Positions 28 through 42,797 of a stretch of 64,000 nt of DNA are shown in pieces. The stretch lies in contig AP018270.1 of assembly GCA_003994795.1 (NCBI GenBank), positions 62,001 through 126,000 of the forward strand. Reading direction: 5' to 3'. Position numbers and translations under genes: made by a program. The stretch's first letter is position 1, and the number at the start of each line of letters is the position of its first letter. This DNA comes from Cylindrospermum sp. NIES-4074. Its GTDB lineage: Bacteria; Cyanobacteriota; Cyanobacteriia; Cyanobacteriales; Nostocaceae. Under the pieces are notes generated by a model, which did no database searches, had not been told where the DNA came from, and worked only from the letters and a program-made list of their open reading frames with translations.

Positions 28-1266
28 ATGATTAAGAGTCCAGAGAAACTTGCAGATACGACAATTCAGTTTTCGGCTCCTGTAAGAGCAAACTCGCCGG
101 CACTCCAGCAGCTTTTTGATTTTATTGCTCTGGGGGCAAGTGAGCGCGATCGCGATCGCATCCTTCCTTATAATGTAGTTGAATTGATCCGGCGTTCTAG
201 GTTGGGTGCATTGCGAATCCCCGTTGCCGAAGGTGGTGGTGGTAGCACTGCACGCGAACTATTTGAGGTCGTGATTCGCTTAGGGGATGCTGATCCAAAT
301 GTCGCTCACATTGTGCGGAATCATTTCTCTATAACAGAGCGAATTTTGCGTTCTGAGCGCACCCAAAGGAATCGTCGCTGGCTCAAGGCAGTGGTCGATG
401 GCGCGATTATTGGACTCGCTTCGACCGAACTAGAAGCCAAGCGGTCGGGTGGCGGCCAAGTCGTGAATACAAAATTAACACCCGATGGCGACGGCTATCG
501 GCTGAATGGTACTAAGTATTACAGCACAGGCAGCCTTTACGCGGACTTGATTTTCGTGCGTGTGTTAGTATCCGATGACACTAAAGCATTCATACTTATT
601 CCTACCAAGCGCGAGGGAATAGACCTTGTAGATGACTGGGACGGTTTTGGACAAAGACTTACAGGCACGGGAACGACTACGTTTACGAACGTCCGCGTAG
701 AGGCAGATGAAGTAATTTTTGAGACAGACCAAGACAAAGACAACCTGCCATACAACATTGTTCCGCAACTATTCCTAACAGCAATCAATGCTGGTATTAT
801 TCGCAGCGTTCTGCGTGATGCTACAGCCCTCATCCGTAACAGGCCCCGGACTTTCTACCATGCTGTATCCGAGCAAGCCTCAGAAGACCCAATCTTGCAA
901 CAGACTGTCGGGCAGATTGCCGCCAATGCCTTTGCAGCCGAAGCGATCGTCTTGGCGGCAGCTGATGGTCTTGACCGCCTCCCTGCTGCCCAAGCTCAGG
1001 GTGAAGAGGCAGAGACGGCTGCGGCACTGGCAACTTCTCTGAGTGCAGCTAAAGCCAAATTGATTGTTGATGATTTGGCTTTACGTTCGGCTACCTTGTT
1101 GTTTGAAGTTGGTGGGGCTTCCACAACAAAGAAAAGCTCCAACTTTGATCGTCATTGGCGCAACGCCCGCACCTTATCCTCACACAATCCAAATCATTTT
1201 AAGGCTCGTGCGATCGGCGACTACGAGATCAACGGTACACCATTACCACAACGAGGATTCTTCTAA
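28..1266 (+). CDS. Acyl-CoA dehydrogenase-fold flavin monooxygenase, SfnB/DszC type
   Basis: The 412-residue protein has the layout of the acyl-CoA dehydrogenase superfamily: helical N-terminal domain, beta domain around residues 130-230 (IIGLASTELEAKRSGG is the flavin-side segment) and a helical C-terminal domain. In this superfamily the SfnB/DszC branch acts on organosulfur compounds as reduced-flavin monooxygenases. The next gene is an SfnG-like monooxygenase, which supports a role in sulfone or sulfonate breakdown; the exact substrate is inference. GGAGATAG sits just before the ATG. By eye the protein has no Cys and no Met after the start, which is extreme for this length. A true acyl-CoA dehydrogenase is the alternative but fits the context poorly. 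Confidence 0.85.
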   Translation: MIKSPEKLADTTIQFSAPVRANSPALQQLFDFIALGASERDRDRILPYNVVELIRRSRLGALRIPVAEGGGGSTARELFEVVIRLGDADPNVAHIVRNHFSITERILRSERTQRNRRWLKAVVDGAIIGLASTELEAKRSGGGQVVNTKLTPDGDGYRLNGTKYYSTGSLYADLIFVRVLVSDDTKAFILIPTKREGIDLVDDWDGFGQRLTGTGTTTFTNVRVEADEVIFETDQDKDNLPYNIVPQLFLTAINAGIIRSVLRDATALIRNRPRTFYHAVSEQASEDPILQQTVGQIAANAFAAEAIVLAAADGLDRLPAAQAQGEEAETAAALATSLSAAKAKLIVDDLALRSATLLFEVGGASTTKKSSNFDRHWRNARTLSSHNPNHFKARAIGDYEINGTPLPQRGFF

Positions 1267-1274
1267 TTTTGTTC

Positions 1275-1312
1275 AGATCCCTGATTTCTAACCTGTGAGA
1301 AGTCGGGGATCT
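1275..1312. repeat. Imperfect hairpin after the first gene
   Basis: Arms 1275-1289 (AGATCCCTGATTTCT) and 1298-1312 (AGAAGTCGGGGATCT) pair at 13 of 15 positions around an 8-nt loop. It lies 9 nt after the stop codon and resembles the dispersed hairpins of filamentous cyanobacteria. It may end transcription or protect the 3' end, but no U-run follows. Confidence 0.5.
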
Positions 1313-1342
1313 CACAGCTAATCAAAACCGTTGAGAGGAACT

Positions 1343-2560
1343 ATGAGTACAATTGACACTACTTTTTTGAAAGCAAGTAAAGAGGCGATGTCTGGCGACA
1401 AGCCGCTTGGCGTCTACGCTTCTCCAACAGACTATCCCCAAAGCCCATTATCTCAAGCTCTCCGGCAGCCAGTACTGCTAGGACTATTCTTACCGATTCA
1501 TCACGGTGGTTGGAGTTCTTCTAACCTCCCGCGCACTACAGACTGGTCATTTGATTACAATGCCAAACTTACCCAAAAGGCTGAGGAGCTAGGTTTTGAC
1601 CTGGTTTTCGGCTATTCCACATGGCAGCCAAAGGGCGGACAGGGGCCAACTCGCACAGAAGCAGGTTTAGATGCCTTCATTGCTACCGCCTCCCTTGCCG
1701 CCATTACCTCACGCATTCTATTAATCTCAACAATTCACATTCTCTACGGGCCTTGGCATCCCATCCATCTGGCTAAATTTGGTGCGACACTTGACCACAT
1801 TTCTAAAGGTCGCTGGGGAATTAATGTTGTCACTGGACACCGGGCTTATGAGCATGAACTGTTCGGCTGGAGCCAAATCGAACATGATCGCCGCTATGAA
1901 CTCGCTGATGAATTTGTCACCGTCCTCAAACGACTCTGGTCGGAAACAGAAAATTTTTCTTACAAAAGTCAGGGTTCTTGGCAGTTTAAGGATGCTTACA
2001 TCAGCCCCCGCCCGCTTTATGGTCGCCCCATCCTAGTTAACGCCACTGGTTCGGATGCTGGCATCGAGTTTGCGGGTCGTCATTCTGATATCGTATTTAT
2101 CACCAGTCCGGCTGGCGGTGACATAGAAAGCGCATTGTCGTCGTTACCCGCCCATACAGCCCGTGTCAAACAATCGGCGATCGCTAATGGTAGACAAGTC
2201 CGCACTCTCCTAAATCCGCTTATTGTCGTGCGGGAAACTGAAAAAGAGGCGGAAGAATATGCTCAGGCGATTATTGACCATGCCGATTATCAGTCAATCG
2301 CTGGACGTTCTGGCGTTAGCAGCGATGCACACGCCTGGAAGGGGCATCAAAAGGGAAATCTGCGTCATGGCGTTGGTAGTGCGATCGGCGGTAATGTGCA
2401 GCTAATCGGTTCACCCGAACAAATCACCGAACAACTTTTGCAACTGAATAAAGCTGGTGTCGATGGCTTCCAGCTTGCCTTCTATGATTTTGAGCCTGAT
2501 CTAGATTTCTTCGGTAAGCGCGTTTTACCACTACTGAAGCAGGCTGGACTTAGGTTTTAA
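1343..2560 (+). CDS. LLM-class flavin-dependent monooxygenase, SfnG-like
   Basis: The sequence is a bacterial luciferase-like monooxygenase (TIM barrel). The segments DWSFDYNAKLTQKAEELGFD, then TLDHISKGRWGINVVTG and the RRYELADEF helix match the SfnG/RutA type of FMNH2-dependent enzymes. SfnG oxidises dimethylsulfone to methanesulfinate; substrate identity here is inferred from similarity and the SfnB-type gene upstream. An in-frame TTG exists at 1331, but the ATG at 1343 follows GAGAGGAA at a normal distance and is preferred. It contains no Cys and one internal Met in about 405 residues. Confidence 0.85.
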   Translation: MSTIDTTFLKASKEAMSGDKPLGVYASPTDYPQSPLSQALRQPVLLGLFLPIHHGGWSSSNLPRTTDWSFDYNAKLTQKAEELGFDLVFGYSTWQPKGGQGPTRTEAGLDAFIATASLAAITSRILLISTIHILYGPWHPIHLAKFGATLDHISKGRWGINVVTGHRAYEHELFGWSQIEHDRRYELADEFVTVLKRLWSETENFSYKSQGSWQFKDAYISPRPLYGRPILVNATGSDAGIEFAGRHSDIVFITSPAGGDIESALSSLPAHTARVKQSAIANGRQVRTLLNPLIVVRETEKEAEEYAQAIIDHADYQSIAGRSGVSSDAHAWKGHQKGNLRHGVGSAIGGNVQLIGSPEQITEQLLQLNKAGVDGFQLAFYDFEPDLDFFGKRVLPLLKQAGLRF

Positions 2561-2645
2561 ACGCAGAGGAACACAGAGGTAAGCGCGGAGGAATGCAAAG
2601 TTTATTTGAGTCCATTCGCTAAAACTTATGTTGGGAGGTGTATCA

Positions 2646-5584: not shown

Positions 5585-5640
5585 AAGAAATATTGATTAG
5601 ATTTGAGCAGTTTATCAAAAGGTGGTATCTTATTTACTAT

Positions 5641-5670
5641 ACTACGGTAAGCCAGTCGTTTTACTGTAGT
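5641..5670. promoter_or_regulatory. 30-bp sulfur-island palindrome, site 1
   Basis: ACTACGGTAA at 5641-5650 and TTACTGTAGT at 5661-5670 form an inverted repeat around a 10-bp spacer, the most symmetric copy in the window. It lies 65 bp before the start codon of the sulfonate-binding lipoprotein gene at 5735 and probably controls the run of genes to 9859. Confidence 0.7.
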
Positions 5671-6879: not shown

Positions 6880-7989
6880 ATGCCTGTGGAATTTATTGGC
6901 ATGATTGGTACGCGAGAAGCGTCTGAATTACATGGCCCTACTGTATCTCTCACGGGAGGAAGTATAGACTTAGCTTATGTCCGTAAATTTGCAAAAGTCC
7001 ATGAAGATGGTGGCTTTGATCGAGTATTAGTTGGTTATAGTTCTACAGGGCCGGATGGCTTTAATGTAGTCAGTTATGTGGCTGCTGCAACTGAACGACT
7101 CAAGTTTTTACTTGCACATAGACCGGGTTTTGTGGCTCCCACTTTAGCCGCCCGCAAATTAGCAACATTAGATCACTTTTCTAATGGTCGCGTTGCTGTA
7201 CATATCATTACTGGTGGGAGCGATGCCGAACAACAGCGCGATGGTGATTGGCTCGATCATGATACTCGCTATCGCCGTACTGATGAATATCTTGATATTG
7301 TGCGGCGAGTTTGGACGAGTGAAGAACCTTTCAATTATGAAGGGGAGTTTTACCAACTCAAGCAAGCATTTTCAGAAGTTAAACCCTTACAGCAACCACA
7401 TATTCCGATATATTTCGGTGGTGCTTCTGGTGCTGCTGTGGGTGTAGGTGCGAAGCACAGTAATGTATATGCGTTTTGGGGAGAACCTATAGCTGCTATT
7501 AAACAACGGATCGCAGAGGTGAAAGCCGCAGCACCGCCTGGAAAAGACTTACAGTTTAGTGTTTCTTTGCGTCCAATTTTGGGCGAAACAGAAGCAAAAG
7601 CATGGGAAAAGGCGCATTATATTCTCTCACGGATCAATGAAATCCGCGCTCAAGCTGGAATTCAATTAACTGCTGGTGCATCTTCCCCACCTCAAGCTGT
7701 TGGTTCATTGCGGTTGTTGGATTTTGCTAAGGAAAGCGAAATTCACGATAAACGTTTATGGACACCGATCGCAGCTGCAACTGGCGCTCGTGGTAATACT
7801 ACTGCTTTGGTGGGGACTCCTGAACAGGTAGCAGAGTCATTATTTGATTACTACAAAGCTGGAGTGACAACACTATTGATTCGCGGTTTTGACCCTGTGG
7901 AAGATGCGATCGCTTATGGTCGAGATGTGATTCCTTTAGTACGTCAACAAGTACAACGACAAGAACGACAAACAGCAACCGTAGCTTAA
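6880..7989 (+). CDS. ssuD: SsuD-like FMNH2-dependent alkanesulfonate monooxygenase
   Basis: This 369-residue luciferase-like monooxygenase follows SsuD closely. It has LKFLLAHRPGFVAPTLAARK, then ATLDHFSNGRVAVHIITGG, the LDHDTRYRRTDEYLDIVRRV helix and IPIYFGGASGAAVGVGAKHS. SsuD releases sulfite from alkanesulfonates using FMNH2 from a separate reductase and O2 in the cytoplasm. It stands 71 bp after a sulfonate-binding lipoprotein gene and is probably co-transcribed. GGAG precedes the ATG. There is no Cys and one internal Met (residue 8). No flavin reductase gene is adjacent; the nitroreductase at 30291 is one candidate partner. Confidence 0.88.
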   Translation: MPVEFIGMIGTREASELHGPTVSLTGGSIDLAYVRKFAKVHEDGGFDRVLVGYSSTGPDGFNVVSYVAAATERLKFLLAHRPGFVAPTLAARKLATLDHFSNGRVAVHIITGGSDAEQQRDGDWLDHDTRYRRTDEYLDIVRRVWTSEEPFNYEGEFYQLKQAFSEVKPLQQPHIPIYFGGASGAAVGVGAKHSNVYAFWGEPIAAIKQRIAEVKAAAPPGKDLQFSVSLRPILGETEAKAWEKAHYILSRINEIRAQAGIQLTAGASSPPQAVGSLRLLDFAKESEIHDKRLWTPIAAATGARGNTTALVGTPEQVAESLFDYYKAGVTTLLIRGFDPVEDAIAYGRDVIPLVRQQVQRQERQTATVA

Positions 7990-8018: not shown

Positions 8019-8780
8019 ATGCCAAATTTCACTAGACCGCAACCACCAGTCTTTGAACGAGTTGAAGAAGAACGACTCTACCGCAAACAACGCCTTGCGG
8101 CTGCATTTCGGTTGTTTGCTCGTTTTGGCTTTAGTGAAGGAACAGCAGGCCACATCACCGCCAGAGATCCTGAGTTTACCGACCATTTTTGGGTAAATCC
8201 CCTTGGCAAGTACTTTGGTCACATCCGAGTTTCTGACTTGATTTTGGTCGATAGAGAAGGCGAAGTTGTCAAAGGTAATGCTCCTGTCAATCGCGCCGCT
8301 TTTGCGATTCATTCACAGGTTCATGAGGCGCGACCTGATATAGTTGCAGCTGCTCATGCTCATTCTCTGCATGGTAAATCTTGGTCAAGTCTTGGTCGTC
8401 TGCTTGATCCTCTAACTCAAGATGCTTGCGCTTTCTATCAAGACCACGCTCTATTTGATGACTATAAAGGAGTAGTTTTAGATACTTCAGAGGGTAAAAG
8501 AATTGCTGAATCTTTGGGAGACAAAAAAGCTGTCATCCTGCGGAATCATGGCTTTTTAACAGTGGGGCAGACAGTAGACGAAGCAGCTTTTTGGTACATT
8601 TCTTTTGAGCGCTCGGCTCAAGCCCAACTGCTTGCAGAAGCAGCTGGCAAACCACTTCCCATTGACCACGAAACAGCAACTTTTACTCATAACCAAGTAG
8701 GAACCCATTCCGGCGGTTGGTTTAGCTTTCAGCCACTCTACGACCGAATTGTGGGCGAAGAACCAAACTTACTAGACTAG
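8019..8780 (+). CDS. Class II aldolase/adducin-domain protein
   Basis: The 253-residue protein has the class II aldolase/adducin fold signature: GTAGHITARDPE near residue 42, the metal-binding pair in AAAHAHSLHGKS near residue 112, and a third ligand in LRNHGFLTVG near residue 180. Family members are zinc-dependent aldolases, decarboxylases or epimerases. Its place between ssuD and a sulfonate-binding protein gene suggests that it handles the carbonyl product left after desulfonation, which is inference. It has one Cys and no internal Met. Confidence 0.8.
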   Translation: MPNFTRPQPPVFERVEEERLYRKQRLAAAFRLFARFGFSEGTAGHITARDPEFTDHFWVNPLGKYFGHIRVSDLILVDREGEVVKGNAPVNRAAFAIHSQVHEARPDIVAAAHAHSLHGKSWSSLGRLLDPLTQDACAFYQDHALFDDYKGVVLDTSEGKRIAESLGDKKAVILRNHGFLTVGQTVDEAAFWYISFERSAQAQLLAEAAGKPLPIDHETATFTHNQVGTHSGGWFSFQPLYDRIVGEEPNLLD

Positions 8781-10327: not shown

Positions 10328-11821
10328 ATGCTTTTCAGTATCACTAATCTCGATAAAATCTCATCCTCAAATACCGACATGACAACAACGACTGACCTCG
10401 ATTTTGCCGCACGTGAGGCGTTGCGCCTACTCGGCCCCGATCCCGAAAACTGGGTGAGCGATCGCTCAGGCATTGACCACAATGTGACGATAGTAGGCGG
10501 TAGTGGCAGTGGCAGCACCTTCGCATTTGCCCTGCGGCGTGCCGGCATTGGCCGCGTGACAGTCATCGACGAAGCTGAGGACGAAGCCCATGCTGGCGTG
10601 TGGCTGACGCGGGCGCGGATGAAAAAGCTACGCACACCGAAAAACCTGCCAGGGCCAGAACTGGGCATTCCGGCGCTATCATTTCAAGCTTGGTACGAGG
10701 CGCGGCACGGTGTTGAGGCATACGCAGCGATTGACCGCATTCCACGAGTGGCGTGGGCTGAGTACCTCAGTTGGTATCGGCATTTTCTGGGCATTCCAGT
10801 TCGGTATCAGACGAAGTTGGTGCGGATTGAGCCGGACGCAGATTTCTTTCGTCTGCACCTAGAAGTGAACGGTGTCGCCCAGGTGGAAACCACACGTAAA
10901 ATTATCTTCGCCAACGGTGTAGCTGGCACTGGTGGCCCAAACATACCGCCTGTATTGGCATCTCTGCCACGCACCTTATATGCACATACCGCCCATGCAA
11001 TCGACTTCAACGATTTGCGTGGCAAAACAGTAGCAGTGCTGGGTGCTGCGGCCTCAGCCTTTGATGCGGCAGGAGTGGCATTGGAATCAGGCGCTAAGGC
11101 AGTACACCTGTTCGCACGGCGATCAGCGATCGCATCTCTGCCAGTGAATCGCCTCCGAGGTTATCCTGGCGCTTACTATAACTATCCGCAACTACCTGAT
11201 GCCGCTCGGTGGTTCCAAGCCTGGCGCTTTCATCAAGTTGGCTCTACGCCACCACCAGACGCAATCGAACGGGTAATAGCGTTCTCTAACTTCTACCTGC
11301 ACTTATCTGCACCTTGGAAAGCGGCTCACAACCAGGGCGATGGCATCGTCGCTCAAGTAAATGATGATGTTTTCGAGTTCGATTTTGCGATCGCAGGTAC
11401 TGGCTACTTTGTTGACCCAACAAAGCGCCCGGAACTCGCCGAATTTGCACATCACATCGCCCTCTGGCGCGATCGCTATGAAGCCCCAGCCGACCAGCGT
11501 GACGATCAACTCAGCACCCACCCTTACCTTGGCAGCGCCCATGAATACCAAGAGAAAGTACCTGGCAATGCCCCCTACCTGAAAGACATCCATGTGTTCA
11601 ATCCTGCTGGCTTCGTCAGCTTTGGTCTACCCATCGGTGACGTGCCTAGTATTCGACGCGATGTGCCAGCAGTAGTATCACGCATCAGCCATGACTTATT
11701 CTTCGCTGACTGGTCATTACACGAAGCCCGGATCACCAGCGGCAATATTTCGCCGGACTTTGACACATCACTGTATGCGGATGCGGTGTGGAAACAGCAA
11801 GCCAAGGTGGCAGTCAGCTAA
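10328..11821 (+). CDS. FMO-like FAD/NAD(P)-binding oxidoreductase
   Basis: A two-dinucleotide-domain flavoprotein. The FAD site is VTIVGGSGSGSTFAFALRRA, a variant GxGxxG near the start, and a second Rossmann motif is VAVLGAAASAFDAAGVAL near the middle. This is the plan of flavin-containing and Baeyer-Villiger-type monooxygenases. Either the ATG at 10328 or the one at 10379 (MTTTTDLDFAARE) could be the start; neither has a strong ribosome site. With the later start it has no Cys and one internal Met in about 480 residues, so it shares the sulfur-poor signature of the island. Its substrate is unknown; an organosulfur compound is inferred from context. Confidence 0.75.
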   Translation: MLFSITNLDKISSSNTDMTTTTDLDFAAREALRLLGPDPENWVSDRSGIDHNVTIVGGSGSGSTFAFALRRAGIGRVTVIDEAEDEAHAGVWLTRARMKKLRTPKNLPGPELGIPALSFQAWYEARHGVEAYAAIDRIPRVAWAEYLSWYRHFLGIPVRYQTKLVRIEPDADFFRLHLEVNGVAQVETTRKIIFANGVAGTGGPNIPPVLASLPRTLYAHTAHAIDFNDLRGKTVAVLGAAASAFDAAGVALESGAKAVHLFARRSAIASLPVNRLRGYPGAYYNYPQLPDAARWFQAWRFHQVGSTPPPDAIERVIAFSNFYLHLSAPWKAAHNQGDGIVAQVNDDVFEFDFAIAGTGYFVDPTKRPELAEFAHHIALWRDRYEAPADQRDDQLSTHPYLGSAHEYQEKVPGNAPYLKDIHVFNPAGFVSFGLPIGDVPSIRRDVPAVVSRISHDLFFADWSLHEARITSGNISPDFDTSLYADAVWKQQAKVAVS

Positions 11822-17353: not shown

Positions 17354-18664
17354 TCAAACTGGATACGGTTCTAGTTCAGATTCCCATGTCTGATATTTAG
17401 ACTTTAATTCTTCAAATATTTCTTTATGTTCTACTTGGAGATCAATTTTTTCTTTTTCATCATTTGCAAGATTAAAAAGATATTCATCATTTCCAACTTT
17501 CAAATACTTCCAATCTCTACTACGAACAGCACCTTGTGGGACTCTTGGGGGTAAACCAGGTCTGTTATTTCCCTTATGCCTCCAAAATAATGTTCGAGCA
17601 TGAGCAGGAATTTCACCTTGAATAATAGGCAGTAAATTTTCACCATCCAGAGGATAATCAGGGTCGGAATTAGTTTGCGTCGCTGCCAAAATTGTAGCTG
17701 TAATATCGTGGGTGATGATTACTTGGTCACTTATTTGATTTGGTGCAATGGCTCCTGTCCAGCGAATAAAGGTAGGAACTCGGATACCACCTTCATATAG
17801 ATTCCCTTTCTTGCCTTGAAAAGTACCAAAATTAGAGAACTTTTCCCCTCCATTATCACTAGCAAAAATCACGATGGTATTTTCAGCTATTCCGGCATCT
17901 TCTAAAGCTTGCAATACTCTACCAACACCATGATCTAGACTCTGTACAACTGCTGCATAAGATTCTGCTGTACCTATGTTAACCCAATTTTGTAGATTAT
18001 CTCTACCAATTAAAGCGTTACTAAGTTCTATATCTTCAGCCCCTTCCCAAGGCCAATGAGGTGCAGTGTAATGTAAGCTGAGATAAAACGGACGGCTACG
18101 AGGACGTTTGATAAAATCTACAGCACGTTCAGTAAATATGTCTGTGATATAGCCTATTTCCTCAACTTTTACATCCGCTTCCCAGAGGTCAGGTTCTCCA
18201 CTGGTGTCTACATGACGAAAGTAATCAATTGCCCCACTAAAGTTACCAAAAAATTCGTCAAAACCGCTTTTTAAAGGGCTATATTTAGGCAAATAACCAG
18301 CGTGCCATTTGCCTACTAAAGCTGTTTCATAACCATTTGCTTTTAACAAAGACGCTATGGTGGGATGTTCTTGAGGTAGTCCAACAGTGTCTCCTATTTG
18401 CTGAAAACTTGGTAAGGGTTCATAATTCCCTATTGCCAGTCTTCCTGGATAGCGTCCTGTAAAGAAACCAATTCGTGTGGGTGTACAAACTGGGGAATCA
18501 GAATAAGCTTGGCTAAAACGTATTCCCTCTTTCGCTAATTGGTCTAAATAGGGTGTCTGATAGTTTGTTTGTCCATCAATACTCAGATCACCCCAACCTA
18601 AATCATCAGCCAAAATGAAAACTACATTAGGACGCTTGGTGGTAGAAAAGTTAGTAGAAAACAT
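17354..18664 (-). CDS. Sulfatase (arylsulfatase family), cytoplasmic type
   Basis: The 436-residue protein starts with RPNVVFILADDLGWGD, the metal-binding segment of type I sulfatases. The formylglycine motif is VCTPTRIGFFTGR with Cys60 (CxPxR). KWH and HYTAPHWPW and ASDNGGEKF give the other active-site residues. There is no signal peptide, so it probably works in the cytoplasm on an imported sulfate ester. By eye Cys60 is its only Cys and it has no Met after the start. It needs a formylglycine-generating enzyme; one is encoded at 34766. Confidence 0.88.
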   Translation of the reverse strand: MFSTNFSTTKRPNVVFILADDLGWGDLSIDGQTNYQTPYLDQLAKEGIRFSQAYSDSPVCTPTRIGFFTGRYPGRLAIGNYEPLPSFQQIGDTVGLPQEHPTIASLLKANGYETALVGKWHAGYLPKYSPLKSGFDEFFGNFSGAIDYFRHVDTSGEPDLWEADVKVEEIGYITDIFTERAVDFIKRPRSRPFYLSLHYTAPHWPWEGAEDIELSNALIGRDNLQNWVNIGTAESYAAVVQSLDHGVGRVLQALEDAGIAENTIVIFASDNGGEKFSNFGTFQGKKGNLYEGGIRVPTFIRWTGAIAPNQISDQVIITHDITATILAATQTNSDPDYPLDGENLLPIIQGEIPAHARTLFWRHKGNNRPGLPPRVPQGAVRSRDWKYLKVGNDEYLFNLANDEKEKIDLQVEHKEIFEELKSKYQTWESELEPYPV

Positions 18665-19845: not shown

Positions 19846-19875
19846 ACTACGTTAAATCTACTGATTTACCGTATT
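19846..19875. promoter_or_regulatory. 30-bp sulfur-island palindrome, site 2
   Basis: ACTACGTTAA at 19846-19855 and TTACCGTATT at 19866-19875 with a 10-bp spacer (ATCTACTGAT). It lies 204 bp before the start of the PEP-CTERM gene on the minus strand. Confidence 0.65.
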
Positions 19876-26462: not shown

Positions 26463-26492
26463 ACTACGATAAGTCAACCAAATTACCGTATT
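26463..26492. promoter_or_regulatory. 30-bp sulfur-island palindrome, site 3
   Basis: ACTACGATAA at 26463-26472 and TTACCGTATT at 26483-26492, spacer GTCAACCAAA. It is 57 bp upstream of the AprA-like gene on the minus strand. Confidence 0.7.
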
Positions 26493-26921: not shown

Positions 26922-26951
26922 ACTACTGTTAATTTATCAATTAAATGTATT
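26922..26951. promoter_or_regulatory. 30-bp sulfur-island palindrome, site 4
   Basis: ACTACTGTTA at 26922-26931 and TAAATGTATT at 26942-26951, spacer ATTTATCAAT. It is 125 bp upstream of the fusion gene at 27077. Confidence 0.55.
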
Positions 26952-29402: not shown

Positions 29403-30092
29403 TCAAAATTTTTCCACCCAGGGGCGCAATTCCACTTCCCAAGTCCAAGCATTGCGAGGTTGACGGAGAATGCTCAGGTAAGTTTGAGCGATCGCATCTG
29501 GATCAAGTAAACTATCTGGCCGGTCGTCTGGTTCTATCCGGGTAGCAGAACGAATTCCTCCATCAATCACGAAATGCGCCACATGGATATTCTGAGGAGC
29601 CAATTCACGGGCAATGCTTTGAGCCAAACCCCGTAAAGCGAATTTACCCATTGCAAACGGTGCAGACTGAGGATAACCCTTAACACTGGCGGAAGCACCT
29701 GTAAAAAAGATCGCTCCCCCACCCACAGCTAACTGACGTTTTGCCGCCGCTTGTGCTACTAAAAAGCCACCATAGGCAGTAATTTCTAGTGTTTTGGCAA
29801 CATCGGCTGGGTCAAGTTCCACAAATGAACCACGAACGCGCCAGCTAGGATTATACACAACCAATGTTGGTACTCCTAGTTTTTGTTCGACATCTGTAAA
29901 GAGTTGTTCAACTTCATCTAGTTGAGAAGCATCAGCAGTAAAACTGACGGCTCCGATTTCATCAGATAATGCTTTGAGCTTATCAATTTGCCTTGCTGCT
30001 AAAGCAATAGTAAAGCCTTCTTTTGCCAATAAACGGGCTAGTGAGGCACTGAGTCCACTACCAGCCCCAACAATCAATGCAATATTTGCCAT
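29403..30092 (-). CDS. Short-chain dehydrogenase/reductase
   Basis: A 229-residue SDR. The cofactor site is ALIVGAGSGLSASLARLL. The usual Tyr-x-x-x-Lys of the active site is replaced: the segment reads GYPQSAPFAMGKFALRGLAQ, so a Lys is present but the Tyr position is unclear. Loss or shift of the catalytic Tyr would place it among atypical SDRs. It has no Cys and one internal Met, and is divergent from the nitroreductase gene with a sulfur-island palindrome between them. Confidence 0.78.
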   Translation of the reverse strand: MANIALIVGAGSGLSASLARLLAKEGFTIALAARQIDKLKALSDEIGAVSFTADASQLDEVEQLFTDVEQKLGVPTLVVYNPSWRVRGSFVELDPADVAKTLEITAYGGFLVAQAAAKRQLAVGGGAIFFTGASASVKGYPQSAPFAMGKFALRGLAQSIARELAPQNIHVAHFVIDGGIRSATRIEPDDRPDSLLDPDAIAQTYLSILRQPRNAWTWEVELRPWVEKF

Positions 30093-30168: not shown

Positions 30169-30198
30169 ACTACAGTAACTCTATCGACAAACAGTATT
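30169..30198. promoter_or_regulatory. 30-bp sulfur-island palindrome, site 5
   Basis: ACTACAGTAA at 30169-30178 and AAACAGTATT at 30189-30198, spacer CTCTATCGAC. It lies in the divergent gap, 76 bp from the SDR start and 92 bp from the nitroreductase start, so it could control both. Confidence 0.6.
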
Positions 30199-30290: not shown

Positions 30291-30896
30291 ATGACTGAAA
30301 AACTTGCACAAACAGAATACCCTGTTCATGACTTCATTCGTAGTCGGTGGAGTCCTAGAGCCTTTGCTGACCGTCCCGTTGAACAGGATAAGTTGCTTTC
30401 TCTGTTAGAAGCGGCTCGTTGGGCCCCTTCTTCTTACAACTATCAGCCTTGGAGCTTTATTGTTGCGACCAAAGAAAACTCGACGGAATATGATCGTTTA
30501 CTTAGTACTTTGGTTGAGTTCAATCAAGGCTGGGCCAAGAATGCTCCTGTATTGATAATTGCTGTTGCTCAAACCCTCACTGATGATGGAAAAACCAACC
30601 GACACGCATTTCATGATGTCGGATTAGCAATTGAAAACTTGGTATTTCAAGCAACTGCGTTGGGTTTATATGTGCATCAAATAGCAGGGTTTAATGTAGA
30701 TATTGCGAGAAAAGAATATCAGATTCCCGACGGCTATGAACCTGCAACTGCACTTACCGTCGGTTATATAGGTGATCCCCAGAATTTGAATGACGGGTTA
30801 CGAGAACGGGAACTAGCACCCCGTGTTCGCAAATCGTTAAAAGAATTTGTCTTTACGGGAAAGTGGGGTGAGACTTCATCTTTACTCTGGAAGTAG
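30291..30896 (+). CDS. Nitroreductase-family FMN oxidoreductase
   Basis: A 201-residue nitroreductase. FIRSRWSPRAFADRP and LLEAARWAPSSYNYQPW are the FMN-binding start of the family, and HDVGLAIENLVFQATALGLY is the dimer/FMN helix. The family reduces nitro compounds, quinones or flavins with NAD(P)H. In this island it could supply reduced flavin to the SsuD- and SfnG-like monooxygenases, for which no other reductase is visible; that is inference. It has no Cys and no Met after the start. Confidence 0.85.
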   Translation: MTEKLAQTEYPVHDFIRSRWSPRAFADRPVEQDKLLSLLEAARWAPSSYNYQPWSFIVATKENSTEYDRLLSTLVEFNQGWAKNAPVLIIAVAQTLTDDGKTNRHAFHDVGLAIENLVFQATALGLYVHQIAGFNVDIARKEYQIPDGYEPATALTVGYIGDPQNLNDGLRERELAPRVRKSLKEFVFTGKWGETSSLLWK

Positions 30897-31016: not shown

Positions 31017-31046
31017 AATACGGTAATCCCATTGATATAGCGTATT
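31017..31046. promoter_or_regulatory. 30-bp sulfur-island palindrome, site 6 (no gene in front)
   Basis: AATACGGTAA at 31017-31026 and ATAGCGTATT at 31037-31046, spacer TCCCATTGAT. It lies between two convergent genes and right next to a MITE-like element. It may be the leftover promoter of a lost gene. Confidence 0.5.
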
Positions 31047-32303: not shown

Positions 32304-34706
32304 TTACTTCAATTCCAGGGTGACTTGTTGTAAGTTGCCGGTGAATGCAAAGGGTGTTTGGTAAGTATCTACCGCAGGTGTGCCAGTATCTTGACCAACA
32401 TCAAAGGTTTCATCTAAACCAAATCGGTAGCCTACGGTTTTATCAATGCGACCTTCGGCAACCTGTTGATCGTTGATCGAAAGCTTACCAGTACCGCCTG
32501 CTCCCGGAGCGCCACCGTCATAAGTAAAGTCAAATTTAATTTGGGATTTGCCGATCGCAATTGGTTGAGAAGATTGAATGATTGTGCGATCGCTATTGAA
32601 CAAGTTGTAAGCAAAGGTGGGTTTACCTTCTTGCAAGAAGAAACTCCAACCCGCAAAACGTCCGCCTTGGGTGACTAAAACGCCTTCAGTACCATCTTTG
32701 GCAGCATCCACATCGGCAGTGATGCTAAAGGAGCGATTCTTAATATTGGGAGCGCTACCTTCGGGAATCCCTGCAACAGATGTGTAATAAGTAAAGCTAT
32801 TGCGTCCTGTGATTAGGTTGGAACGAATTTTGACATCAAACCGTTGAAGTAAGCGATCGTCCAAGGGCAGAACTTTGTATTTCTTTGCTTCCTTGAGAAA
32901 TAGATTTTGTAGTTGCGCTAACTTGTCAGGGTTCTGCTTGGCTAAATCGTTGGCTTCACTGAAGTCTTTGGTAATATCGTATAGTTCCCAATTATCTTCA
33001 TCGAAGGTGGTTTTGGAGACACGCTCCCAAGGTAAGCGTCCATGACGGGCGGCTGCTACCCAACCTTGATCGTAAATGCCACGATTGCCAAACATTTCAA
33101 AATACTGGGTTTTGTGATGAGATGGTACAGCAGGATCATCAAAGCTATAAACAAGGCTAGTACCTTCGATGGGTTGTTGTTTTACACCGTTGACTACCTC
33201 TGGTTCTTCAATCCCCACAGCTTCCAGAATTGTAGGATAAATATCAATTACATGATGGAATTGGCTTCGCAGTCCACCACGATCTTTGATGCGTTGGCGA
33301 AGCCCGCCGGAGGCATCGCCCCAAGCCACAACTAAACCATTGCGGGTTCCACCGAAGTGAGAAGCAATTTGTTTTGTCCATTGGAAGGGGCTATCCACTG
33401 CCCAAGCCCAAGCTGCATGAAAATGATTGAAGGTTTTTGGCCCACCTAAATCATCAAAAGCCGCGAGAACTTCTTGAGGACTTTCTGCTACGCCATTAAA
33501 GACTTTTAATTCATTAACACTACCTGTTAAGCCGCCTTCAGCACTCGCACCATTATCGCCGGCGATGAAAAAGACTAAGGTGTTATCCAATTCACCCAAT
33601 TGATCAATCGCATCAATGACTCTACCAATTTGTGCATCGGTATGGCTGAGGAAACCTGCAAATACTTCCGCCTGACGCGCATAAACTTTCTGCTCGGTGG
33701 GAGTAAGGGAATCCCAAGCCGGGAGTTCCGCCGGGCGAGGAGTCAGCTTAGTATCGGCGGGAATTACACCCAAGGCTAGTTGACGAGCAAAGATGTCTTC
33801 GCGTAATTTATCCCAACCTCGATCGAATTTACCCTTGTACTTGTCGATCCATTCCTTGGGCGCATGGTGTGGGGCATGGGTTGCGCCAGTGGCAAAGTAG
33901 GTAAAGAAGGGTTTATCTGGAGCGATCGCTTGTTGGGTGCGAATCCACTTAATTGCATGGTCTGCTAGATCGGGGGTAAGGTGATAATCAGGGCGATTTG
34001 GTTTCTGAATATGTTGGGTATTTTCCACCAAAGCTGGACTCCATTGATTGGTATCACCGCCCAGAAATCCATAGAAGTACTCAAAACCTAAACCTGTCGG
34101 CCAGCGATCGAATGGGCCTGCTGCACTGGTTTCATAGTCTGGGGTATTGTGCCATTTGCCAAAGGCCGCTGTGTTATATCCATAATCTCGCAATACTTCA
34201 GCGATCGTTGCCGCACTTCTAGGTAAAATCGCTGTATAACCTGGATAGCCTGTGGCTAACTCCTCAACCACACCTGTATTCACAGAATGGTGATTGCGTC
34301 CCGTGAGCAATGCCGCTCTGGTAGGAGAGCAGAGTGCTGTAGTGTGGAATTGGTTATAACGCAATCCCCTTTCTGCTAGACGGTCTAAATTAGGCGTATC
34401 GATCAGACCGCCAAAGGTGCTGGGTTGTCCAAAACCGACATCATCAAGCAACACCAGCAAAATGTTTGGTGCATTTTCTGGAGCCTTAATTGGTTTGGGG
34501 AAGTCTGGTTCGGATTCTTTGTAAGTCAGGCCAATTTTGCCTTTAAAAGATGGTTGGGGTAATGGCAATTTGTCGCCATAGTCCGCCCAAGCAGGTAGAG
34601 GTAAGAGACTAGAAAATATTAGCGTTAGGGCTGTCAAAAAGGCGATAGCTTGAGAAGTTAACTTGAGAGATGCATACAAAGAATCTCTCTTGTGAGGATC
34701 AGTCAT
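32304..34706 (-). CDS. Large exported arylsulfatase
   Basis: 800 residues with an N-terminal signal segment ([19 protein letters not shown]). The sulfatase domain begins [20 protein letters not shown]. Cys126 in [16 protein letters not shown] is the formylglycine precursor; [22 protein letters not shown] and [12 protein letters not shown] supply the other active-site residues. A C-terminal beta-rich domain follows. It hydrolyses sulfate esters in the periplasm or outside. Cys126 is its only Cys and there is only one internal Met. A 29-nt repeat inserted in frame at 33291-33319 adds [10 protein letters not shown]. The activating enzyme is encoded next to it. Confidence 0.9.
33291..33319. repeat. 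29-nt palindromic repeat inserted in frame in the arylsulfatase gene
   Basis: The unit begins GCGTTGGCGAAGCCC and ends CCGGAGGCATCGC. It encodes, on the minus strand, most of the extra peptide [10 protein letters not shown] between LVVAW and [14 protein letters not shown] related 29-nt unit is in the neighbouring formylglycine-generating enzyme gene. Confidence 0.65.
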
Positions 34707-35986: not shown

Positions 35987-36393
35987 TAAAGTTCAACTTT
36001 GCTTCAAACTTATATCATTTTGGTTTTAGACGAAAAATTCACTTTTCATTGTAGTTATCGGTAATTTATTTTTGTACTACATTGTTTATGTAGAAAAATC
36101 CATATTTTATATCAATAAATTTAAAAACATTTTCAATATTTTATACTATTATGCAGAAACTCTTAACTCAGGCTAATTTACAATAAATAAATTACAAAAA
36201 TAAACGTAGACGCATTTGCGGAGCGCCTGTTCACAGGCTACTGTGAGGCATAGAGAAATGAGGAGGAGAGAGTTTTTGAGCTATTTTTTTATTTCTAATC
36301 CCCTAAAGTCCTAAAAGTCGATAAATTTAGCGTTGTTTATGGAATATTGATAAATTACATCTTATGAAAACATAAGTCAAGCACTATATATAT
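35987..36393. other. AT-rich intergenic stretch
   Basis: No gene seen. Contains a short palindromic repeat near 36210 (GCGGAGCGCCTGTTCACAGG) and otherwise AT-rich sequence. Confidence 0.5.
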
Positions 36394-38718: not shown

Positions 38719-38748
38719 ACTACACTAAATCGACCGATAAACTGTAAT
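38719..38748. promoter_or_regulatory. 30-bp sulfur-island palindrome, site 7
   Basis: ACTACACTAA at 38719-38728 and AAACTGTAAT at 38739-38748, spacer ATCGACCGAT. It lies in the divergent gap, 98 bp from the racemase-like gene and 143 bp from the GST gene. Confidence 0.6.
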
Positions 38749-38891: not shown

Positions 38892-39563
38892 ATGAGCAAC
38901 ATACAACTGTACTTCGCCAAAGCCTCTACTTTCTCTCAACGTACCCGTGTAGTCTTACTGGAAAAAGGTATTGACTTTACCCCCATAGAAATTGACTTAC
39001 AGAACAAACCAGATGGTTACACGCAGATTTCGCGCTATGGCAAAGTCCCAGCAATCAAACATGGGGATGTTGAAATTTACGAGTCTGCTATCATCAATGA
39101 ATATCTAGATGAAGTCTTCCCGGAGCCACCTTTGTTACCCCGCGATCCCGCAAATAAAGCGATCGCTCGAATTTGGATAGACTACGCCAATACTCGCCTT
39201 GTCCCAGCTTTTAACAAATTTCTGCGCGGTAAAGATACCCAAGAACAGGAACAAGGACGAAAAGAGTTCACAGAAGCACTTCTATATATTGAACAAGAAG
39301 GATTAGGCAAAGGTGATTACTTGTTAGGGGATCAGTTTAGCCTTGTTGATATCAGCTTCTATCCTTGGTTTGAGCGTTTACCACTCTTAAAACACTTCCG
39401 CAAATTCACACTACCAGCAGAAACACCTCGTTTGCAGACATGGTGGAACAGCTTAAGCGATCGCTCCTCAATTCAAGCAGTAGCAAACCCTGTAGACTTC
39501 TATTTGCAAAGATTCGCCAAAGTTCTCGGTGAACCTGTTCCCGTTGGTGCAGTTCAAAAATAG
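38892..39563 (+). CDS. Glutathione S-transferase
   Basis: A 223-residue canonical GST. The N-terminal thioredoxin-like domain has [20 protein letters not shown] and the glutathione contact segment [20 protein letters not shown] (cis-Pro and Glu-Ser). The C-terminal helical domain has [13 protein letters not shown]. It contains no Cys and no Met after the start, so the catalytic residue must be Ser or Tyr (Ser12, Ser14 are near the right place). It heads a plus-strand row with CmcJ-like and TauD-like dioxygenase genes, which suggests glutathione-dependent handling of a sulfonated or electrophilic intermediate. Confidence 0.87.
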
Positions 39564-39611: not shown

Positions 39612-40478
39612 ATGAGCTTAAATAATCAAGTTCTAGACAAACCAATTTCCGCAGAACTGCCATACGTAGAGGCTAACCTCAGTTACCTGGTTCCAATGGC
39701 AGAAAAACCTGTTAACTATACTTACGAACCACCGCCAGGGATTCCCCGCACGAATGCAACTTATCAAACGCACAAACTGCCAATTTACAATGCTCGTTCT
39801 ATCTCAGAGAACATCTCGTTAGATCGAGAAGGATTCGCCTTTACTGGACATAATACTAATGTTCGCAACTTTTACGATGAAGACGAAGTACGCCGCGTCT
39901 ACTATCCAGAAGCCGAGCAATTGTTAAAAGAAGTAACAGGTGCAACGAAGGTAGTAATATTCGATCACACCCTGCGTAATGCTAGCCAGTCAAAGCCCGG
40001 TGAGAATAATATTAAAGAACCTGCCTTGCGCGTACACAACGACTTCACCGCCAAATCCGGCTATACTCGCGCCCATTTGGAACTAGCAGCGCGAGGCATA
40101 GATGACATTGATGCGCTACTAAAACAAAGATTTGCCATTATAAATGTTTGGCGAGCGATCGCACAACCAATCCAAGAGTCACCATTAGCAGTGTGTGACG
40201 CGCAAAGCATCGCACCCACAGACATTGTAGCTGGCGATCTTGTGTACCGCGATCGCGTCGGGGAAACTTATGGAATCACGTATAACTCCAAACATAAATG
40301 GTTCTACTTTCCGCAAATGCACAGAGATGAAGCACTATTTATCAAATGCTTCGATTCCGCAGAAGACGGACGCGCCCGTTTTGCCGGCCATACAGCCTTT
40401 GAAGACCCTACCAGCCCAGCCAACGCTCCCCCACGAGAAAGCATCGAACTACGAACATTCGTCTTTTACCCCGCATAA
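39612..40478 (+). CDS. CmcJ/NvfI-family oxidoreductase
   Basis: The 288-residue protein has the pattern of the CmcJ/NvfI/AsaB family: FYDEDEVRRVYYPEAEQLLK, then VVIFDHTLRNAS, ALRVHNDFTAKSG and FAIINVWRAIAQPIQESPLA, with FYFPQMHRDEALFIKCFDS at the end. These are non-haem-iron, 2-oxoglutarate-like or hydroxylase-associated proteins with unclear chemistry; HxD in RVHNDF may bind metal. It is 48 bp after the GST gene. It has four internal sulfur residues. Confidence 0.75.
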   Translation: MSLNNQVLDKPISAELPYVEANLSYLVPMAEKPVNYTYEPPPGIPRTNATYQTHKLPIYNARSISENISLDREGFAFTGHNTNVRNFYDEDEVRRVYYPEAEQLLKEVTGATKVVIFDHTLRNASQSKPGENNIKEPALRVHNDFTAKSGYTRAHLELAARGIDDIDALLKQRFAIINVWRAIAQPIQESPLAVCDAQSIAPTDIVAGDLVYRDRVGETYGITYNSKHKWFYFPQMHRDEALFIKCFDSAEDGRARFAGHTAFEDPTSPANAPPRESIELRTFVFYPA

Positions 40479-40642: not shown

Positions 40643-41557
40643 ATGACTTCCCAACACTTTGACATCAAACCAATCGCCGGACGTATCGGTGCAAAAATCA
40701 TCGGTGTTGACTTAAGCAATAACCTCAGCAATGAAATCATCAGCGATATTCGTAAAGCTTTAGTTAAATACAAAGTCATCTTCTTCCGAGATCAGAACCT
40801 TGACGCTCAAGGACAAGTAGCCTTCGCCCGGCGCTTTGGGGAAGTCACCACAGCGCATCCCACCGTTCCCTCATTGCCAGAAAATCCAGAAGTTCTTGAT
40901 CTGAATTATGGTAAGACTGTGAACCGCGCCAACACATGGCACACTGATGTCACATTTGTAGACCGTCCTCCCCTTGGTTCTATTTTGCGGGCGCTTGTCA
41001 TCCCACCATCAGGAGGTGACACCATTTGGGCAAACTCCGTGACTGCTTACGAAGATTTACCAACTCACCTACGTAATCTTGCTGACCAACTCTGGGCAGT
41101 ACACAGCAATGCCTACGATTATGCAGCAGCTACAATTGACTTGCCAGAAGAAGTCTTAAAGCATCGGGCTGTTTTCACTTCGACTGTATACGAAACCCTG
41201 CATCCAGTTGTCCGCGTCCATCCTGAATCTGGTGAGCGTGGTTTATTTATTGGTGGGTTCGTGCGCCGCCTGCGCGGTTTTTCACAGAATGAATCTGATG
41301 AAATCGTGAAATTGTTCCAAGCTTACATCACACGTCCTGAGAATACAGTCCGGTGGCGTTGGAAAGTAGGCGATGTGGCTTTTTGGGATAATCGCGCTAC
41401 TCAACATTATGCGATCGCTGACTACGGTAATCAACCTCGCCACGTTCAACGAGTCACACTTGTGGGTGATATTCCTGTTGGTATTGATGGTAAGCAAAGT
41501 GAAGCAATCAAGGGAGACTCTTCTGCATATAACCGACGTGAACCCGCCTTAGTTTAA
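40643..41557 (+). CDS. tauD: TauD-family Fe(II)/2-oxoglutarate sulfonate dioxygenase
   Basis: A 304-residue TauD-type dioxygenase. The iron triad is His100 and Asp102 in NTWHTDVTF, and His255 in DNRATQHYAIAD; Arg266 or Arg270 would bind 2-oxoglutarate. Spacing is nearly that of E. coli TauD (His99, Asp101, His255). It hydroxylates a sulfonate carbon, which then breaks down to an aldehyde and sulfite. The protein has no Cys and no Met after the start. Substrate may be taurine or another sulfonate. Confidence 0.87.
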   Translation: MTSQHFDIKPIAGRIGAKIIGVDLSNNLSNEIISDIRKALVKYKVIFFRDQNLDAQGQVAFARRFGEVTTAHPTVPSLPENPEVLDLNYGKTVNRANTWHTDVTFVDRPPLGSILRALVIPPSGGDTIWANSVTAYEDLPTHLRNLADQLWAVHSNAYDYAAATIDLPEEVLKHRAVFTSTVYETLHPVVRVHPESGERGLFIGGFVRRLRGFSQNESDEIVKLFQAYITRPENTVRWRWKVGDVAFWDNRATQHYAIADYGNQPRHVQRVTLVGDIPVGIDGKQSEAIKGDSSAYNRREPALV

Positions 41558-41690
41558 AAGGGATTGGGGGCTGCAAAGCCTGCGGCATAGCTACGCTTCG
41601 GGCGCAGCCTCTCGTAGAGAAGAGCATCAGTGTCTCAATTCCGAAGATCCTAGCTGCAAAAACACAGAAAATTGTTAAATAGCATTGCAT

Positions 41691-41720
41691 ACTACGGTAA
41701 ATCTATCGGAATAATGTATG
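41691..41720. promoter_or_regulatory. 30-bp sulfur-island palindrome, site 8
   Basis: ACTACGGTAA at 41691-41700 and ATAATGTATG at 41711-41720, spacer ATCTATCGGA. The right half is degenerate. It lies 114 bp before the second TauD-like gene. Confidence 0.6.
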
Positions 41721-41834
41721 ATACTCTCAGTTCTACTCCCAGCACAGGAATGTTGCGATCAGATATTGGCAAAATTCCAAAGGAAACAGGCGAGTGTGAA
41801 CACCACCCTACAGATCAAACTCTGGAGAATCTAC

Positions 41835-42797
41835 ATGGGCTACAAACATATAGAAGTTAAACAAGTTGCTGGTTTCATCGGTGCCGAAATCGGTAGCGTA
41901 GACCTTTCCCGTCCTCTTTCTGACGAGCAAGTCCAAGAAATCCGTAAAGCGTTATTGAAATGGAAAGTTGTGTTCTTTCGTGGTCAGAACATCGATCATG
42001 CTGCCCAGGTTGAGTTCACATCTCGTTTCGGTGAAGTAACTTTCGCGCATCCACTCGGAGAGCCTGAACCAGTACCGGGATTCCCACAGATCAAACCCGT
42101 AGATCGTAAGCTCTATGAGAAGCAGTACGGTTTTCGCACTGGTGGTCCTTGGCACACAGACGTAACGGCAGCTATTAACCCACCAGCAGGGTCAATTTTA
42201 CGCGCGGTTAATGTCCCCAGCTTCGGTGGTGACACTCAGTGGAGCAATCTAGTTGCAGCTTATGAAGGACTGTCAGCACCCCTAAGGGCGCTAGCAGACA
42301 CATTGAAAGCTGAACATCGCTTTAATGGGGGCGGGTATCAGCCCCGCAATGGCAAATTCGATGAGCGTATTGCTGTTAATCCACTAGTCTCAATCCACCC
42401 AGTAGTCAGGGTTCATCCTGAGACTGGCGAACGTGCGTTGTTCGTTAACCCTGGCTTCACCTCGCACATTATTGACGTGTCACCACAAGAGAGCAAACTG
42501 TTACTTGAGTTGTTCTTCAACCAAATTACCAAACCTGCTTACACCACCCGTTTCCGTTGGAACAATGGTGATATTGCGTTCTGGGATAACCGTGCCACCG
42601 TGCATTTAGCCCCTCAAGATTTAGATCATTTGGATGTCGAGCGTCTCTTATATCGCACCACCATTACTGGTGATGTTCCAGTTGGAGTTGATGGTTTCCG
42701 CTCCCAAGTGGTTCAAGGTGAGGTGTTCAACGCAGAAGTACCAACTGTGTTCAAGCAGAAAGCTGAGTCTAAGGAACCACAACCAGTGCTTTCGTAA
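41835..42797 (+). CDS. TauD-family Fe(II)/2-oxoglutarate dioxygenase, second copy
   Basis: About 320 residues. The triad is His107 and Asp109 (GPWHTDVTAA) and His257 (DNRATVHLAP). The ATG at 41835 follows TGGAGAA and is preferred; the in-frame start at 41718 would place translation inside the regulatory palindrome. Compared with the copy at 40643 it has an extra segment after VTFAHPLGEPEPVPG and a GGGYQPRNGKFDER insertion, so the two probably differ in substrate. It has no Cys and no Met after the start. Confidence 0.86.
   Translation: MGYKHIEVKQVAGFIGAEIGSVDLSRPLSDEQVQEIRKALLKWKVVFFRGQNIDHAAQVEFTSRFGEVTFAHPLGEPEPVPGFPQIKPVDRKLYEKQYGFRTGGPWHTDVTAAINPPAGSILRAVNVPSFGGDTQWSNLVAAYEGLSAPLRALADTLKAEHRFNGGGYQPRNGKFDERIAVNPLVSIHPVVRVHPETGERALFVNPGFTSHIIDVSPQESKLLLELFFNQITKPAYTTRFRWNNGDIAFWDNRATVHLAPQDLDHLDVERLLYRTTITGDVPVGVDGFRSQVVQGEVFNAEVPTVFKQKAESKEPQPVLS

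Follow-up and report, generated by a model that had tools for sequence, protein, structure and literature searches.

The window analyzed in this study, the whole 64,000-nucleotide stretch of Cylindrospermum sp. NIES-4074 DNA, corresponds to positions 62001-126000 of contig C2 (340,655 bases), one of 5 contigs in a genome of 7.7 Mb. Contig C2 is very probably a plasmid, given that plasmid pNe_5 of Nostoc edaphicum CCNP1411, which carries a sister island, matches 81% of window positions 1-12000 at 94%. Nostoc was also the source of the loci nearest to the SfnB-like locus of the window. The window holds a predicted organosulfur-scavenging island, in which 14 genes encode proteins almost free of cysteine and methionine (Cys+Met; the initiator Met is left out of all counts):

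28..1266, plus strand: SfnB-like acyl-CoA-dehydrogenase-fold protein, Cys+Met 0, in the same unit as the binding-protein gene C2:60936
1343..2560, plus strand: SfnG-like luciferase-fold monooxygenase, Cys+Met 1
6880..7989, plus strand: SsuD-like luciferase-fold monooxygenase, Cys+Met 1
8019..8780, plus strand: class II aldolase family protein, Cys+Met 1
10379..11821, plus strand: flavin-monooxygenase-like protein, Cys+Met 1
17354..18664, minus strand: sulfatase, Cys+Met 1 (Cys60 of CxPxR)
18743..19642, minus strand: exported PEP-CTERM-like protein (by eye; no Pfam match), Cys+Met 0
29403..30092, minus strand: short-chain dehydrogenase (SDR), Cys+Met 1
30291..30896, plus strand: nitroreductase-family protein, Cys+Met 0
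32304..34706, minus strand: arylsulfatase-like protein, Cys+Met 2 (sole Cys, Cys126 of CxPxR)
38892..39563, plus strand: glutathione-S-transferase (GST)-fold protein, Cys+Met 0
39612..40478, plus strand: CmcJ/NvfI-family oxidoreductase, Cys+Met 4 (1.39%)
40643..41557, plus strand: TauD-family dioxygenase, Cys+Met 0
41835..42797, plus strand: TauD-family dioxygenase, Cys+Met 0

The curated cut-off of TIGR04022 (430.9 bits) was not reached by the SfnB-like protein (307.2 bits), which is therefore called SfnB-like only. The same was true of protein 1343 against SfnG (TIGR04021; 210.7 bits, cut-off 382.95), 6880 against SsuD (TIGR03565; 234.3, cut-off 518.2) and 41835 against the TauD equivalog PRK09553 (251.9, cut-off 313). 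The Pfam cut-off of PF02668 was reached by both TauD-family proteins (40643 and 41835), that of the sulfatase family PF00884 by both sulfatases (222.6 and 210.1 bits), each with a CxPxR motif; the class II aldolase family protein exceeded the cut-off of PRK06208.

A preliminary description of this DNA had listed a Cys+Met count for each of the 14 proteins, and our recount reproduced every one (0, 1, 1, 1, 1, 1, 0, 1, 0, 2, 0, 4, 0 and 0 in gene order), for a total of 12 in 5,005 residues (0.24%). Its comparison proteins within the window were likewise recovered as far richer (NifE-like, 15/460; Mrp, 12/340; the 24697 protein, 4.23%). In a background of 239 open reading frames (ORFs) of at least 150 amino acids (aa), sampled from 21 chromosomal stretches of 20 kb, Cys+Met made up 2,291 of 94,926 residues (2.41%), and the lowest of 20,000 random 14-protein sets from this background had 1.10%. 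Given that the 14 proteins were picked for low content, a fairer test takes all window ORFs of at least 150 aa, and here 12 of 44 had at most 0.5% Cys+Met compared to 12 of 239 in the background (Fisher p = 3e-5). Eleven of these 12 belong to the 14-protein set, the exception being the Uma2-like 60300. Proteins 18743 and 41835 missed the 0.5% cut because the script used longer starts, and 39612 because of its content of 1.39%. The starts 1343, 10379, 18743 and 41835 are internal to longer ORFs; annotated pNe_5 lengths of 480 and 320 aa support 10379 and 41835, and the shorter 41835 start is further supported by an operator that overlaps the longer one.

A palindrome of about 30 bp, ACTACGGTAAnTCGATCGAnTTACCGTAGT, was first seen by eye in the upstream regions of these genes, and we treated it as a putative operator. 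A first matrix from 14 sites gave leave-one-out scores of 21-36 bits, and a second, symmetric matrix, 30 bp long and built on 34 sites from sulfur loci, contained 27.5 bits. When genes were joined into units across gaps of at most 120 bp, 12 of the 14 sulfur-poor genes were found in units with the palindrome upstream. The putative operators and operator-like sites are:

C2:60764, left of the window: operator of the unit comprising C2:60936 and 28..1266
5641..5670, plus strand: operator, 33.0 bits, upstream of 5735 and its unit (5735-9859)
19846..19875, minus strand: operator, 34.4 bits, upstream of 18743 and its unit, which extends to 14835
26463..26492, minus strand: operator, 33.5 bits, before the FAD protein 24697 (not sulfur-poor)
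26922..26951, plus strand: operator, 26.0 bits, before 27056/27077 (not sulfur-poor)
30169..30198, no strand assigned: operator, 32.3 bits, between divergent 29403 and 30291
31017..31046, no strand assigned: operator-like site, 27.6 bits, with no ORF of at least 100 aa starting within 350 bp
36307..36336, minus strand: weaker operator, 21.9 bits, 323 bp upstream of FGE 34766, which sulfatase 32304 follows
38719..38748, no strand assigned: operator, 26.6 bits, between divergent 37871 and 38892
41691..41720, plus strand: operator, 26.9 bits, before 41835
46073..46102, no strand assigned: operator-like site, 31.4 bits, 610 bp upstream of the NifE-like ORF 46713
58824..58853, no strand assigned: operator-like site, 29.4 bits, about 0.4 kb upstream of the ABC-exporter-like ORF 56479

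An operator was looked for at 10379 and none was found; 40643 lies 165 bp behind 39612 without an operator of its own, and operators were found near several of its orthologues.

In 420 kb of background, two sites of at least 17 bits were found, both within one stretch. Genome-wide, 28 sites matched the pattern with at most 2 mismatches, a set complete to that level that retains one 2-mismatch site, L214, which is likely false; the 3-mismatch level was left aside, given 85 sites in total versus 54 in the control. Of 13 loci examined around pattern sites, 7 (L214 and L216-L221) lacked a site of 17 bits. Genes adjoining the 28 sites or in line behind them were chosen blind to composition, yet with a pattern derived from sulfur loci, and 12 of 47 had at most 0.5% Cys+Met compared to 13 of 285 background ORFs of at least 100 aa (p = 2.2e-5), with medians of 1.23% versus 2.43%. 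Eight of these 12 are plasmid genes, and the chromosome alone gave 4 of 27. A wider set of 43 sites of at least 17 bits, in which many stretches had been chosen for sulfur-poor genes, gave 14 low genes of 63.

At the level of sequence, the palindrome is common to units holding most of the scavenging genes, genes for sulfate- and sulfonate-binding proteins and the cysE/Rrf2 pair. A site of 23.2 bits precedes the sulfate-binding protein gene L212:4723, and a second such gene, L215:11180 on the minus strand, starts 41 bases from a site of 31.0 bits (L215:12424), both proteins scoring above the TIGR00971 cut-off. Further sites lie before the genes for an aliphatic-sulfonate-binding SsuA-family protein (L215:1073; 20.8 bits), a NIL-domain protein (25.5 bits) and a Blh/TIGR01244-like protein that falls below its cut-offs (24.9 bits), and a site of 18.9 bits was found at cysE with its divergent Rrf2 gene. 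A site that did not contribute to the first matrix lies 100 bp upstream of the sulfur-free SDR gene C1:6576106. Across 36 cyanobacterial loci (L053-L085, L088, L089 and L188), 74 sites of at least 20 bits occurred in 33 loci compared to 0 in the reversed sequences, and 7 non-cyanobacterial loci had no site at 15 bits. Among TauD loci of the class, 15 of 22 had a site of at least 15 bits (L030-L051, read without a reversed control, one being from the genome itself and two overlapping).

The depletion is kept up in cyanobacterial orthologues. We counted 3 Cys+Met in 15,676 residues of SfnB-like orthologues (39 rows), 5 in 4,982 residues for TauD-family 40643 (17 rows, mean identity 71%) and 3 in 3,051 residues for 41835 (10 rows), and in both sulfatases only the CxPxR Cys, which we take to be the formylglycine site, was kept. 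Over the 11 families tested in other cyanobacteria, several of which have 1-3 rows only, 20 of 2,187 alternative residues were Met or Cys at columns where the commonest residue was neither, compared to 30 of 1,045 in seven control families from the same loci (Fisher p = 5e-5); BLOSUM62 predicted 86.9 and 43.9 such gains, respectively. The SsuD-like orthologues were drawn from SfnB-centered loci alone because a class-wide search at E 1e-60 matched, among 145 genomes, its own genome only. Outside the cyanobacteria, SfnB-like proteins had 0 Cys+Met in Rhodococcus, 1 in Paraburkholderia, 3 in Methylobacterium, 4 each in Rhizobium K84, Sinorhizobium and Nitratireductor, and 5 or 6 in Methylocalor, depending on the start. 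The Rhizobium K84, Methylocalor and Rhodococcus counts follow annotated coordinates, given that ORF calling misplaced genes in GC-rich relatives, and the others follow called ORFs. These counts bear on the possibility that horizontal transfer brought the module from donors with enzymes that were sulfur-poor beforehand, and that selection did not continue in cyanobacteria. Relatives on the Rhodococcus plasmid pRB98 with 0/408 (SfnB-like) and 0/317 (TauD-like) and the Paraburkholderia count would suit such an origin, which would also be compatible with selection, as both can hold. As a full explanation we consider it unlikely, given that Met and Cys continue to be excluded within cyanobacteria, at less than a quarter of the expected gains, and that the 40643 orthologues stay near zero despite their divergence.

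Cys and Met are each reduced to about one tenth of background in the 14-protein set. Other oxidation-prone residues are not cut (Trp, 1.19 times background; His, 1.41; Tyr, 1.04); Leu (0.74) and Gln (0.72) are lowered, and Asp, His, Phe, Arg, Gly and Ala are raised. Met and Cys are the most easily oxidized residues, and nine of the 14 proteins match oxidoreductase families, so we considered whether flavin and iron oxygenases that produce sulfite and reactive oxygen might shun oxidizable residues irrespective of sulfur supply. This appears improbable, given that proteins other than oxidoreductases (the two sulfatases, the class II aldolase and the GST-fold protein) are equally depleted, that Trp, His and Tyr are untouched and that FAD proteins encoded in these units retain 1.8-4.2% Cys+Met.

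Paralogues in the same genome were mostly richer than the island proteins. The chromosomal sulfatase has 2.47% Cys+Met, other nitroreductases 0.9-2.8% and most SDRs 1.1-5.4%; of eight TauD-family rows, four are at 1.9-3.5% and four, including two window proteins, at 0-0.84%. Acyl-CoA-dehydrogenase-like paralogues had 2.01, 0.93 and 0%, and GSTs ranged from 0 to 4.35%. Rows for wrong or partial ORFs (L097, L099 and L133) and multidomain proteins (L105, L136 and L137) were left out as contrasts, except L105 (1.91%), which was counted with the TauD family; L144 and L146, which represent a single protein, were left out likewise. Beyond the window, the sulfur-free paralogues comprise a TauD-family protein (C1:5345477), an acyl-CoA-dehydrogenase-like protein (C1:4488637), two GSTs (C1:4148278 and C1:5065305) and two SDRs (C1:6570306 and C1:6576106). 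The stretches around C1:4488k, 4520k and 6030k encode binding proteins of the sulfonate type, an arylsulfotransferase-like protein or the class II aldolase that is also present in the island, and at C1:5345k and 6570-6576k operators are present and sulfur-type neighbors absent. From these comparisons, the depletion is not explained by fold or family, a conclusion that is weak for the luciferase fold and does not hold for 18743, as PEP-CTERM-, Uma2- and porin-like proteins are low in Cys and Met elsewhere in the genome too. A constraint of family or fold, or a post hoc choice of naturally low proteins, is thus very unlikely to account for the set as a whole: about 5% of background ORFs are as low (12/239), 18743 fits and luciferase-fold paralogues lie mostly at 0.9-1.6%, but paralogues of the sulfatase, the nitroreductase and the SDR, and half of those in the TauD family, have a much higher content, the excess holds across all window ORFs, and genes chosen by operator show the same enrichment, though the matrix came from sulfur loci.

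We considered the Rrf2-family protein encoded beside cysE (L213:7754-8221) as the regulator that binds the palindrome, and on sequence comparison we judge the odds of this to be about even. It scored 118.1 bits against PF02082 (cut-off, 30 bits) and 93.2 bits against the CymR model NF047409, its second-best NCBIfam match, which is below the curated cut-off of 195. Rrf2 matches were considered to E 1e-25, with the G072 stretch yielding no row, and 50 Rrf2 genes were read over a span that began 250 bp ahead of the called start and ended 40 bp beyond it. Twelve had a site of at least 14 bits, none of which had contributed to the matrix; these 12 were the 12 best E-value matches to the Nostoc Rrf2 protein, and none of the 38 others had a site. 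The Rrf2 tree places these 12 within a group of 14 (support, 93/87), whose other two members are long-branch rows lacking a site. The Crp-family gene next door (L213:5932) provides an alternative candidate. A TTG / TAnnnT pair was found upstream of 38 of 92 sites, and in 19 of these the -10 begins 15-18 bases before the site, a geometry that weakly suggests a repressor-like position just past the transcription start. By eye, a CTTGCTTTT-like element was also seen about 35-45 bases upstream of the operator sites L015:10145, L017:7563, L168:16938, L168:18183 and L173:12385; it may be a -35 box or an activator site.

We propose that this plasmid-borne island forms the organosulfur-scavenging branch of a sulfur regulon in cyanobacteria, and that its soluble enzymes were purged of Cys and Met by selection, a reading that we consider likely. 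The composition and its upkeep in orthologues are observations, from which we infer selection as the cause. In this model, the palindrome would be occupied in the presence of sulfate by a repressor, perhaps the Rrf2-family protein beside cysE, that would probably be released in sulfur limitation, when sulfate uptake proteins and organosulfur enzymes would be made. The soluble enzymes, which comprise monooxygenases of the sulfonate and sulfone types, TauD-type dioxygenases, sulfatases and helper proteins, would be produced when Cys and Met are scarcest, and sequences with fewer of these residues would be favored because the enzymes would be built from the last Cys and Met; selection would have stripped the two residues and would hold them out. 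Membrane and exported parts, FGE and the FAD and ferredoxin-like parts may have remained unpurged because less of them is produced or because they require Cys and Met, FGE presumably having an active-site Cys. Consistent with one arm of the model, the available text of PMC2491639 describes sbpA-cysTWA of Synechocystis as up on sulfur deprivation. The interpretation in the preliminary description is upheld in part. Its sulfur-sparing idea is supported by the tenfold cut in Cys and Met without a cut in Trp, His or Tyr, the higher content of most paralogues and the upkeep in orthologues; equally low relatives, which it had named as a finding that would tell against it, occur in Rhodococcus and not in others (Methylocalor SfnG, 2.78%). 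A broader claim is that a global cyanobacterial sulfur regulon, with an autoregulated Rrf2 repressor and the 30-bp palindrome, joins sulfate uptake, cysteine synthesis and plasmid-borne scavenging, and that its scavenging enzymes retain little more Cys and Met than catalysis demands. Operator and composition together would then reveal sulfur-starvation genes from sequence. We hold this broader claim with as much doubt as belief.

Several findings weigh against these proposals. Two of the 14 genes lack an operator-linked unit, and sites without an evident sulfur link occur at a KDPG aldolase gene (32.3 bits) and at C1:3134346 (18.7 bits, with a poor center). Other island genes show no depletion, including permease 2628 (4.04%), the substrate-binding proteins 5735, 8825 and 43085 (1.1-2.0%) and FGE (3.2%), and the operator-linked FAD-binding proteins within 14835-16847 and 24697-26406 are not sulfur-poor (1.8 and 4.2%), with the ferredoxin-like 14835, partner of one of them, at 8.9%. 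The contrast for the luciferase fold is weak, given that five of six usable paralogue rows outside the window have 0.88-1.56% and one 3.60%; four or five of those five sit in other sulfur loci. The sulfur-free GST C1:5065305 has neither operator nor sulfur neighbors. Taken singly, the SfnG-like (7/237) and aldolase (1/32) families show no shortage of Met and Cys gains, and two control families had zero gains. On the Rrf2 tree the site label requires 3 changes, and in eight genomes (G083, G099, G138, G089, G131, G134, G020 and G108) operators occur near TauD genes, yet the Rrf2 genes read have no site. For moss-colonizing Nostoc, the authors saw nothing that pointed to sulfur limitation, and transporters for sulfonates rose where those for sulfate fell (available portion of PMC7784912); this split counts against the model because one shared operator would not predict it. 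The suggestion in the preliminary description that sulfur poverty predicts the induced genes is half right, as judged from sequence: 12 of the 14 genes belong to operator units, but a normal or even high Cys+Met content is seen in many other operator-linked genes (24697, 4.23%; 14835, 8.9%), and some sulfur-poor proteins (PEP-CTERM-, Uma2- and porin-like) have low counterparts elsewhere in the genome.

Further observations concern the island and its relatives. In the pNe_5 island (L188:19740-25818), an O-methyltransferase (224 aa), a nitroreductase (201 aa) and a D-2-hydroxyacid dehydrogenase (317 aa) have zero Cys+Met, and an aldo/keto reductase has 1 in 334. The actinobacterial plasmid pRB98 of Rhodococcus oxybenzonivorans (L191) carries a similar set (SfnB-like, luciferase-fold, TauD-like and MetNIQ) with 0-1 Cys+Met per enzyme, and the palindrome is absent from that locus. 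Two transposase-like ORFs (3657-4450, by eye) separate permease ORF 2628 from the MetQ/NlpA-like ORF 4466, which appears N-terminally cut; the annotated MetQ/NlpA gene of pNe_5 is likewise short (333 bp). The Uma2-like 60300-60926 (by eye) has 1 Cys/Met in 208 aa, a similar chromosomal background protein is equally low, and this family seems to be low in Cys and Met without a link to sulfur. A lone NifE-like gene adjoins an MFS transporter gene in both plasmid islands (window 46713-48098; L188:34084-35496), the window copy lying downstream of the operator-like site at 46073. A nitrogenase-like enzyme for isethionate is reported from Rhodobacter in the accessible part of PMC11423573, and by analogy a sulfur role for the lone NifE-like gene is possible. 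An Rfam scan of the window returned zero families at gathering score.

In summary, our analysis turns an oddity of composition into a testable gene set, for which a DNA site, a regulator candidate and the genes themselves can be named. If the proposal is true, element cost has driven an enzyme set to a near-total lack of two amino acids, held clade-wide, and a route opens to organic-sulfur use by nitrogen-fixing, plant-associated cyanobacteria, among which a sulfonate monooxygenase is reportedly needed for moss colonization (PMC7784912, in the part available). Our search of the open literature, which left most subscription journals outside and did not include the palindrome letters themselves, returned no report of the palindrome, of a cyanobacterial Rrf2 sulfur regulon or of sulfur-poor organosulfur islands in Nostoc. 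As far as that literature shows, sulfur sparing is known, and the cyanobacterial operator and the near-total, regulon-scale depletion are new.

Several known systems invite comparison. Mazel and Marliere in 1989 and Gutu in 2011 reportedly described a sulfur-poor phycocyanin in Calothrix/Tolypothrix PCC 7601. Both cases concern Cys/Met-depleted cyanobacterial proteins made in low sulfate, which is predicted here, but those of PCC 7601 are light-harvesting proteins, whereas ours form a scavenging-enzyme set with a common operator on a plasmid. Baudouin-Cornu in 2001 is said to have found assimilatory proteins of Escherichia coli and yeast to be poor in the element that they acquire; that case is a general statistical trend, whereas the content here is near zero in a defined gene set. 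CymR is an Rrf2-family cysteine regulator, and our candidate resembles it in family and in the position of its gene beside cysE and differs in scoring 93.2 bits against a cut-off of 195. Sulfur sparing in cyanobacteria is covered by citations in the available text of PMC4424289. The part of PMC7784912 at hand reports that a Nostoc punctiforme mutant in the alkanesulfonate monooxygenase Npun_F5882 fails to colonize feathermoss, a likeness in the use of sulfonates by Nostoc. In sulfate-free cultures of Rhodococcus qingshengii IGTS8, SfnG, TauD, AtsA and other acquisition proteins have no or few Cys and Met, according to the accessible portion of PMC8557817; that work concerns an actinobacterium and, in the same portion, proteomics of selected proteins, whereas ours adds a common operator and an orthologue-wide test of selection.

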